A stretch of 64,000 bases of DNA from Prorocentrum cordatum (Eukaryota; Sar; Dinophyceae; Prorocentrales; Prorocentraceae), in the NCBI GenBank assembly GCA_963575745.1, contig CAUYUJ010016886.1, positions 1 through 64,000 of the forward strand, given 5' to 3'. The translations under genes and the position numbers were made by a program. Each line of letters opens with the position of its first letter. The stretch's first letter is position 1. Positions 41,879 to 58,700 of this stretch are shown piece after piece. The notes under the pieces are model-generated. The model did no database searches and had not been told where the DNA came from. It was given only the letters and a program-made list of their open reading frames with translations.

Positions 41879-41896
41879 CCTCCGCTGCTGCGGAGG
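41879..41896 (-). repeat. AGCA-loop micro-hairpin
   Basis: Perfect 7-bp arms CCTCCGC / GCGGAGG, loop TGCT on the plus strand. Non-coding. Confidence 0.9.
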
Positions 41897-41920
41897 GTCG
41901 ACGTTCGGCCGATGAGGCCT

Positions 41921-41940
41921 CCCTCCGCTGCTGCGGAGGG
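41921..41940 (-). repeat. AGCA-loop micro-hairpin
   Basis: Perfect 8-bp arms CCCTCCGC / GCGGAGGG. Only 25 bp from the previous copy. Confidence 0.9.
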
Positions 41941-42498
41941 GCGGCTCCTGCGCGATGGTTCAACTAAGTTCTTCCCAGGGATTGGTCTCGGGGGGGTGTT
42001 CGACCCACCTCCAATTCGTGGCCTCCCAGTGCCCCTGGCCGCTACTCCACCCGCTGTGGCTGCTCCACCAGTCACTGGGGCGTTGGTCGCTGCCGAATGC
42101 AACTTGCATGTCGCGCCAGGCGGAGTCGACCCTGCGGTCCTGCAGCGAGGAAGCCTCGCCGCTCGGCTGTTGCCACTCGCGCCCCTCGCCCTCCCTGGTG
42201 CGCCGCCACTCATCCCTGCGCCACTCCCCGTCTGTTGGTTGCTGCCATGGCGTTTGTGGCCTCCGCTGCTGCGGGGGCTCTGGCGGCTGATGCCGCGGCG
42301 CCTCCCGCGGCTGCTGCTCTTGCAACCCTTGCCCTCGCTGCTCCAGCGGCGCAGGCCCTGGAGATGGCCACTGCGGGGTCGGCTGCCACCTTGGGGGTGA
42401 TAAGTAACTATTTCTATAATTATCCCGTTCCCGTCAACTCCCGCCCCTTCCCGACACTCATTTCCTTATGTCATCCCTCGTTCTGCTCAGCCTATTCC

Positions 42499-57733: not shown

Positions 57734-57884
57734 AGCTTCCAAAACAGATGCTCCGCGATGGTTGCCCCCGCTGCTGCGGGGCCCCGCATGAAGCACGAGT
57801 ACCTGTCGCGCGCGCGGACAGGAGGAGGGGCCCCACGGATCCGCGGCCTGCCCGCACTTGAGCAAAAGGAGAAGGACAGGAAAG

Positions 57885-57956
57885 GCAGAGAGAGGGAGAG
57901 AGAGAGAGAGAGAGAGAGAGAGAGAGAGAGAGAGAGAGAGAGAGAGAGAGAGAGAG
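57885..57956 (-). promoter_or_regulatory. (GA)n tract; CT-rich on the coding strand, candidate trans-splice polypyrimidine tract
   Basis: About 70 bp of GA, read as CT in the transcript, about 180 nt upstream of the 830-residue gene. Position parallels the tract before the EEP-like gene. Confidence 0.4.
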
Positions 57957-58454
57957 GCGACGAACGGCGGGTCGACGCGGCCTTCTCAGTTTTTCGATGC
58001 GCGCACATCCGCCTGAACAGGAGAATCATTGATACATCGGACCCCCCTCTGTGAGAGAAAGGTTTCCCGCCCCGAACCCATCTGTGAGAGAAGGGGTCGC
58101 TGTGTGAGTTGCGTGAATGGAAGCGATGGACAGGACAAAGAAATAATGGCGGGCGGGGGATTGCAGGAGGGAGCGCAAGGGGAAGCAAAGCAAAGGAGAG
58201 GGCAGGACGCAGACGACAGCACAGATGTCACTTTTTTTTTCGCACCGCATGCGATGCCGCACGCGACGCGCGAAACCGCGCTCCCCCGCGCGCGCGCGAG
58301 TCCGCCCCTCCGCCGAGGTCACCCCCCCTCCGCGTGAGACATCCCTCCGCTGCTGCGGAGGGGCGCTCCCCTTGTGCGCTCGGGATGTCGCGGTCATCCT
58401 GAGGGCCGTGCAGTCAACCAGACGGGGGCGCCGTCGCGTTCATCCGCCCCGTAA
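57957..58454. other. Unassigned intergenic sequence with one hairpin
   Basis: No gene recognised. CCCCCCTCTGTGAGAGAAAGG and a similar CTGTGAGAGAAGGGG occur 35 bp apart at 58046-58095. Confidence 0.4.
58343..58362 (-). repeat. AGCA-loop micro-hairpin
   Basis: Perfect 8-bp arms CCCTCCGC / GCGGAGGG; intergenic. Confidence 0.9.
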
Positions 58455-58700
58455 TTACATCCGAAGGGGCTCGACGCCTTCTTGCCAGGAGCTGCCGACT
58501 GGCGGCATCTTGGACCCTAGTTTGTACCAGTTGCCCGAATGGTCGCGGTACCAGAGTGCCTGATCGAATTGATCGTCCTCTTCCACGCCTGTCCTCCGAG
58601 CAGTCTTCTCATCCCACACGCTCCAGGACAGCAGCCCCCGCTGCTGCGAGGGCTTGTTTCTTGGAGCTCCCCCTGCGCCGAGCAAGCGGCCGCGCGGCCG
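58455..58700 (-). CDS. Short protein-like exon or gene end, unknown
   Basis: The minus frame ending at 58455 reads SWSVWDEKTARRTGVEEDDQ, QALWYRDHSGNWYKLGSKMP and PVGSSWQEG. Regular Trp/Tyr and a WYRDxxGNWY core look like a small beta-rich domain, but no family was recognised. The frame extends to 58973 with low-complexity Arg/Pro sequence that is probably not coding. It could be the last exon of a gene whose upstream exons I cannot see. Includes the last hairpin (58634-58653). Confidence 0.4.
   Translation of the reverse strand, partial: RPRGRLLGAGGAPRNKPSQQRGLLSWSVWDEKTARRTGVEEDDQFDQALWYRDHSGNWYKLGSKMPPVGSSWQEGVEPLRM

Follow-up and report, generated by a model that had tools for sequence, protein, structure and literature searches.

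A one-way array of small hairpins in a truncated copy of a large mariner-fold transposon from the dinoflagellate Prorocentrum cordatum

The hairpin island and its carrier element

We focused on a 64-kb stretch of Prorocentrum cordatum DNA (positions 1 to 64,000 of contig CAUYUJ010016886.1, assembly GCA_963575745.1; referred to as the window here), in which an earlier note, made from the letters alone, had described about 39 short hairpins packed into 17 kb, all in one orientation relative to the genes. This island is almost certainly an older copy, truncated at its 5' end, of a ~24.1-kb DNA transposon that is abundant in the nuclear genome, was active recently, and has several genes, terminal inverted repeats (TIRs), and a transposase of mariner fold (Table 1). 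The core CGCTRYTGCG occurs 41 times in the window, 39 times within 41560-58832 and twice elsewhere (19117 and 40194), and the reverse-orientation core (CGCARYAGCG) is absent from the whole window, bearing out both the concentration and the single orientation that had been described. A looser pattern, GCTRYTGC, gave 57 matches in the island and 4 in the rest of the window, versus 0 and 6, respectively, in the opposite orientation. With up to 2 mismatches, CCSCGCTRYTGCGSGG was matched 46 times, versus a mean of 1.92 and a maximum of 7 in 100 dinucleotide-preserving shuffles, which refutes equal abundance in shuffled sequence. The hairpins form an island because the remaining window is other sequence than the transposon.

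On the plus strand the loop is TGCT, with TACT as a rare form and TGTT as a single case, so that the near-constant loop reported earlier was confirmed. The island genes lie on the minus strand, and the fullest unit in their coding sense is GCC-N-CCGC-AGCA-GCGG-N'-GGC. Units fall in all three reading frames (AAAE/PAAAG, RSSG, and PQQR), and others stand directly upstream of or behind open frames. The hairpin size given in the earlier note (14 to 28 bp) held in part: arms do reach 11 bp (at 43172-43197 and 43928-43953), but perfect arms range from 3 to 11 bp, and 17 of the 39 hairpins have just 3 or 4 perfect pairs.

The genome searched comprises 4,128,499,153 bases in 21,875 contigs (C114, C15, and the like denote contigs of this genome); the excerpted description of the published P. 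cordatum assembly gives 4.15 Gb, 22,724 scaffolds, and a GC content of 59.7% (PMC10666404). Relative to the copy on C114, the window copy lacks the element's 5' part, i.e., the first ~7.7 kb, and element homology stops at 58832. The terminal 24-mer (TCCAGAAGCCGCATTAAAGTGATC) has 371 exact genome matches, versus 0 for the control, and the window and C114 copies share the same sharp end. Among the first 100 matches listed, 28 inverted termini could be paired by hand within a contig; 16 of these are spaced 23.5 to 24.5 kb apart, and the C114 copy measures 24,088 bp; TIRs, a Tc1/mariner feature, are thus present. A candidate TA target-site duplication shows as TWA in front of 355 of the 371 matches, reading TAA in all 100 listed; TA is its own reverse complement, and no empty site was seen. 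In the stretch of C114 that was read (694401-719400), 56 cores have the coding orientation and 1 is reversed. These hairpins lie within open frames as well as ahead of starts and after stops, and the distance to the terminus on its side is 618 bp for the first core and 365 bp for the last (the reading began 406 bp into the element, and the list of 12-mer matches shows none in those 406 bp).

Genome-wide, the 20-mer GCCNCCGCARYAGCGGNGGC occurs 3217 times, versus 139 times for the control, and the first 100 matches listed fall mostly into clusters with like internal spacing. Orientation is fixed inside each listed cluster but not across the genome, where the strands hold 1652 and 1565 copies, as expected because whole elements insert either way round. 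Independent dispersal through the nuclear genome, as in the palindromic elements to which the earlier note likened the hairpins, was not supported: the hairpins lie inside copies of one large TIR transposon, with like spacing in the clusters listed. Two other arrangements of termini were seen, namely, an inverted pair only 211 bp apart (C3538:56665-56875), which is similar to a miniature inverted-repeat transposable element and looks like a deletion derivative, and two copies in head-to-tail order that repeat every ~23.8-24.0 kb (C436:168900-215960; three termini among the matches listed).

The transposase has an RNase H-like DDE/D catalytic domain, a further Tc1/mariner feature, as indicated by a Mos1-like fold in the fold search, and its candidate catalytic D residues are conserved in A1. 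The helix-turn-helix DNA-binding family HTH_Tnp_Tc5 matched 2 of 21 proteins (best E, 0.003), and a sequence search of PDB found no credible match (best E, 0.31). Viral contigs yielded no confirmed relative of either the transposase or gene B, and the hairpin patterns had one match per contig there. A 1.67-kb hairpin-free stretch within the transposase gene (45574-47233) was considered as an intron and rejected; the C114 copy is contiguous there, and the stretch is therefore an insertion in the window copy. The inserted repeat (45575-47232), which lies between AT microsatellites, belongs to a degenerate family rich in CTTGGGGCC; the family recurs at 11.4-12.3, 19.8-20.3, 21-23.8, and 62.8-63.5 kb.

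Stem pairing, related families, and conservation

Counted from the loop, stem positions 4 to 8 are paired in 152 of 195 cells in the window, versus 119.3 with re-dealt right arms (p<=0.00005; 20,000 shuffles). Position 5 alone is paired in 23 of 39 hairpins versus 12.9 (p 0.0006), and positions 9 to 14 are paired in 91 of 234 cells versus 64.6. Left and right arms thus match better inside one hairpin than across hairpins, in agreement with the earlier proposal that the hairpin itself is kept or generated, rather than one sequence spreading. On C114, positions 4 to 8 are paired in 254 of 280 cells (213 Watson-Crick, 41 G.U).

Two related families carry comparable arrays. The C15 family of the same genome, whose transposase is ~35% identical, has 53 cores of the type CGCAGTNGCG and 0 reversed, with loops that are mostly AGTC and AGTT. 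Its arms are short, with position 4 paired in 50 of 53 (p 0.0005) and position 5 in 27 of 53 (p 0.0045); beyond position 5 there is no pairing signal except at one position of 14 (p 0.02). The L008 family is represented by a 7.7-kb contig (NHDG01000044.1) filed under a planctomycete metagenome-assembled genome, probably as mis-binned stray dinoflagellate DNA. Its transposase is 35% identical, and its 22 cores (CGCAATNACG, with a CAATNA loop; 0 reversed) are paired at position 4 in 17 of 22 cases versus 11.0 (p 0.0005). The core common to the three families is CCGCARYNRCGG. Loops specific to the species were rejected, since families that differ in loop coexist in this genome; the loop is a family trait.

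In the P. cordatum genome, CCGCAGTYGCGG occurs 24,991 times versus 3,102 for the control, and the 100 matches listed include clusters on C15, C84, and C4 plus scattered copies. The L008-type core is near background (751 versus 569), with no cluster among the 100 matches listed. CCGCAGTTGCGG is also scattered outside clusters (on C1 and others), seemingly more often than its reversed control suggests. In comparison frames, CCGCARYNRCGG is found on neither strand of a 3.3-kb KptA/RING frame and once, on the coding strand, in both a 6.6-kb LINE (long interspersed nuclear element)-like frame and a 1.2-kb EF-hand frame; 175 kb of other genome sequence, a small sample (~11 kb N, 20 kb adjoining the window), holds 1 core, in the EF-hand frame. 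It is very improbable that the hairpins are micro mobile elements spreading by themselves, like bacterial palindromic elements. The many near-identical short units and the CCGCAGTYGCGG copies beyond clusters would fit this idea, but the 20-mers occupy like internal sites of element copies among the clusters listed, and cores are nearly absent from the 175 kb of other sequence.

Of 37 cores compared between the C114 copy and that of the window, 35 match exactly, one has a gap, and one is altered; 4 of 360 aligned core bases differ, versus 298 of 5640 in GC-rich control decamers (p 0.00004). One transposase site, immediately upstream of a conserved WRI and then ADD, has a hairpin in all three families, with the loop AGCA, AGTC, or CAATCA according to family (p 0.0077 within 2 alignment columns). 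Cores appear to be read through within conserved frames, free of stops in 45 of 45 scored copies. Across 99 homologous proteins, peptides coded by the window and C15 hairpin types occur far more often than in shuffled sequence: 515 versus 13.8 for xAVAy, 136 versus 28.3 for xAAAy, 36 versus 0.9 for RSCG, and 15 versus 1.8 for RSSG. About one AVA site in each transposase falls at a conserved position; covariation of the x and y residues of the AVA type gave no clear signal in homologous proteins. We consider it barely credible, and disfavor the view, that the sites are alanine-rich protein linkers with biased codons and an incidental hairpin. Many sites do lie in variable linkers and read xAAAy, but they also occur in three frames and outside frames, their arms covary, and they use GCA-GCA-GCG, where alanine codons elsewhere in two genes are GCC (64), GCG (61), GCA (30), and GCT (29).

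Possible roles of the array

An array that is oriented and repeated, with a family-specific loop and a conserved core, has the look expected of the recognition site of a coevolving protein. Our overall explanation, an element whose hairpins serve as recognition sites and are preferably read in RNA, has in our estimate an even chance of being right. The core CCGCARYNRCGG together with its stem would be the site, read on the coding strand folded upon itself, most likely in the element's RNAs, by a protein coevolving with the element, so that the many copies of a family would tag their own transcripts. Specificity would come from the loop and inner stem, and freely varying outer arms would let sites fit any frame and context. 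Marking at the RNA level, as a prediction of function, we put somewhat short of even; the grounds for RNA are that the hairpins are oriented as the genes are and that a hairpin whose stem covaries is a single-strand property. A wider proposal is more doubtful than probable: a dinoflagellate lineage of giant mariner-fold elements with a coding-strand code of its own, comprising about fifty hairpins per element, a loop private to each family that switched in concert across the array, and an element-linked RNA-binding protein distinguishing its own transcripts.

Several observations weigh against the overall explanation. All long element genes run one way, and gene sense and element orientation are therefore inseparable. 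The 12-mer CCGCARYAGCGG is only slightly in excess genome-wide (19,730 versus 16,434 for the reversed control), and therefore nothing but the longer unit and the clusters is conspicuous. G.U pairs exceed C.A mismatches 41:10 in the sense strand of C114, but the ratio is 38.2:13.1 after permutation, so that arm composition carries most of it, and we rejected this excess as proof of action in RNA. Folding energy was rejected as proof as well, given that no strand is favored consistently: C114 hairpins fold alike in sense and antisense (p 0.26), those of the window copy (p 0.048) and L008 (p 0.0002) are more stable in antisense, and those of C15 are more stable in sense (p 0.0004). The core test has a condition built in, as C114 was chosen for having the core; at half the rate, with only the window lineage changing, it gives a p of 0.038. 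Outer arms are no more conserved than their surroundings (17/349 versus 829/13,965; p 0.24), in a comparison that left out two sites lost in the window copy, both of which the core comparison took in. The site shared by three families has a p of 0.042 within 5 alignment columns, and for any two families taken alone, sharing falls short of significance (p 0.13, 0.08, and 0.18). The L008-type peptides are not enriched in the 99 homologues (xAITy, 3 versus 5.9; RNxG, 2 versus 1.2). Finally, no binding protein was identified, and Pfam showed no family above its cutoff in the remaining frames of the element.

Two alternatives draw on the same data. The core could be an oriented site read in DNA, either in the duplex or as a hairpin in single-stranded DNA, its direction serving replication, strand choice, protection from self-insertion, or coat loading. 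We regard this as unlikely, if well worth weighing; it keeps this weight because genes and element share one direction, the folding strand is inconsistent, and the G.U excess is driven mostly by composition. Three families each keep a single orientation over the entire stretch read, which would suit it, as would the course of the array through coding frames and noncoding parts alike, the lack of a consistent strand preference in folding energy, and the motif CCG-N6-CGG, which we take to be a possible duplex dimer site. On the other hand, arms of the window family covary to ~8 bp, which is superfluous for a short duplex site, and the outermost C114 cores stand hundreds of base pairs from the termini.

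With a similarly low probability, the hairpins might be functionless by-products that multiply within the element through slippage, template switching, or gene conversion, processes that also repair one arm from the other. This alternative persists because the arms evolve freely, at the background rate; the tandemly repeated sites at 51171-51351 and the resemblance of many C114 sites to decayed copies of one master (CCTCCGC-AGCA-GCGGGGG) are in line with it. The conserved core, the single orientation, the like architecture with different loops in families ~35% identical, and the shared site with family-specific loops speak against it.

We know of no transposon that tags its RNA or DNA with dozens of hairpins sharing one loop, and no such description appeared among the titles and abstract beginnings listed by searches of an open-access library (subscription papers being outside its coverage). 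Usual Tc1/mariner members measure a few kilobases and hold one gene; the present element shares with Mos1 and Sleeping Beauty the Mos1-like catalytic fold, TIRs, ends that are TAA among the matches listed, and the closely spaced pair of inverted termini, but it spans ~24 kb, holds several genes, and has some fifty hairpins inside it, all but a few pointing one way. The REP/BIME/REPIN sequences of bacteria and the Rickettsia palindromic elements are single units dispersed through a genome. They too are many short palindromes, some in coding sequence, whereas the units here ride in one element in one orientation, and independent dispersal was not seen in the clusters listed. RNA viruses have dispersed packaging signals that, according to the excerpted sources (PMC3662417, PMC6281560), are likewise many sense stem-loops with a common loop motif and variable stems; the present array, however, lies in a DNA transposon that has no known capsid or binding protein. 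Teratorn, in the excerpted account (PMC10175614), is also a very large, multigene composite DNA transposon but differs in that the element here has a hairpin array and, in Pfam scans, no herpesvirus or piggyBac part. Dinoflagellate introners are repeated elements in genes, and Amoebophrya has noncanonical introns, some with inverted repeats (PMC11453091, excerpt). Introners are introns, whereas the hairpin cores here seem instead to be read through as codons. If functional, the array would amount to a self-recognition system of a DNA transposon whose specificity is legible from sequence, would offer a testable case of coevolution between loop and binder with several families in one genome, and would account for the recurrent Ala-Val-Ala peptides in transposase homologues.

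Feature coordinates and other contents of the window

TABLE 1 Hairpins, genes, and other parts of the element copy in the window
Feature	Coordinates	Strand	Basis or remark
Truncated copy of ~24.1-kb hairpin transposon	41557-58832	-	Alignment to C114:701722-718085, pieces 91-96% identical
TIR, element 3' end	41560-41583	+	TAA before
Gene A, C-terminal piece only	58458-58832	-	Open reading frame
Gene B, 830 aa	55214-57703	-	12 homologues, the nearest at 81%; no Pfam family
Gene C, first of two diverged copies	53517-54896	-	
Gene C, second copy	52541-53623	-	95% identical over 554 bp
Transposase gene (Mos1-like fold)	45247-51706	-	tblastn with P0001 and P0002; fold search
Transposase pieces	51185-51706, 49998-50960, 47333-50014, 47241-47333 (other frame), 45247-45564	-	
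Later insertion of unrelated repeat in transposase gene (1.66 kb)	45575-47232	.	Absent from C114 copy
Gene E, 866-codon open frame	42502-45099	-	No Pfam family
Hairpin, 7-bp arms	41879-41896	-	
Hairpin, 8-bp arms	41921-41940	-	
Hairpin, 4-bp perfect arms	42263-42274	-	
Hairpin, 8-bp arms	42728-42747	-	
Hairpin, 11-bp arms	43172-43197	-	
Hairpin core, 3-bp arms	43870-43879	-	
Hairpin, 11-bp arms	43928-43953	-	
Hairpin, 8-bp arms	44402-44421	-	
Hairpin, 8-bp arms	44531-44550	-	
Hairpin, 6-bp arms	45181-45196	-	Directly after transposase stop
Hairpin core, 3-bp arms	47627-47636	-	
Hairpin, 4-bp perfect arms	47760-47771	-	
Hairpin, TACT loop	47962-47973	-	Codes part of conserved AAVAEV
Hairpin (PQQR)	48386-48397	-	Transposase site common to three element families
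Hairpin core, TACT loop	48689-48698	-	Codes conserved TLAVAG
Hairpin, 8-bp arms, TACT loop	49260-49279	-	
Hairpin, 8-bp arms	49710-49729	-	
Hairpin, 5-bp arms, TGTT loop	50863-50876	-	
Hairpin, 5-bp arms	51171-51184	-	In ~84-bp tandem repeat (by eye)
Hairpin, 8-bp arms	51252-51271	-	In ~84-bp tandem repeat (by eye)
Hairpin, 4-bp perfect arms	51340-51351	-	In ~84-bp tandem repeat (by eye)
Hairpin, 7-bp arms	51534-51551	-	
Hairpin, 4-bp perfect arms	52864-52875	-	
Hairpin, 7-bp arms	52891-52908	-	
Hairpin, 4-bp perfect arms	53679-53690	-	
Hairpin, 9-bp arms	53738-53759	-	
Hairpin, 4-bp perfect arms	54368-54379	-	
Hairpin, 7-bp arms	54395-54412	-	
Hairpin, 4-bp perfect arms	54786-54797	-	
Hairpin, 4-bp perfect arms	55194-55205	-	Directly after gene B stop codon
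Hairpin, 4-bp perfect arms	55669-55680	-	
Hairpin, 7-bp arms	55729-55746	-	
Hairpin core, 3-bp arms	56242-56251	-	RSSG frame
Hairpin, 4-bp perfect arms	56524-56535	-	
Hairpin, 4-bp perfect arms	56962-56973	-	
Hairpin, 8-bp arms	57714-57733	-	10 bases upstream of gene B start codon
Hairpin, 6-bp arms	57766-57781	-	Upstream of gene B
Hairpin, 8-bp arms	58343-58362	-	Behind gene A
Hairpin core, 3-bp arms	58639-58648	-	

Outside the island, a LINE-like frame of 2204 codons, carrying Exo_endo_phos and RVT_1 domains, occupies 573-7184 on the minus strand, followed at 8589-10191 by a tandem array with a period of ~137 bp and self-matches that are 92-97% identical. Tandem repeats with the palindrome CCCGAGTTA-TCCGGGG-TAACTCGGG lie at 13.1-13.35 kb and 41.0-41.45 kb; its arms are 9 bp long (10 bp at 13223).
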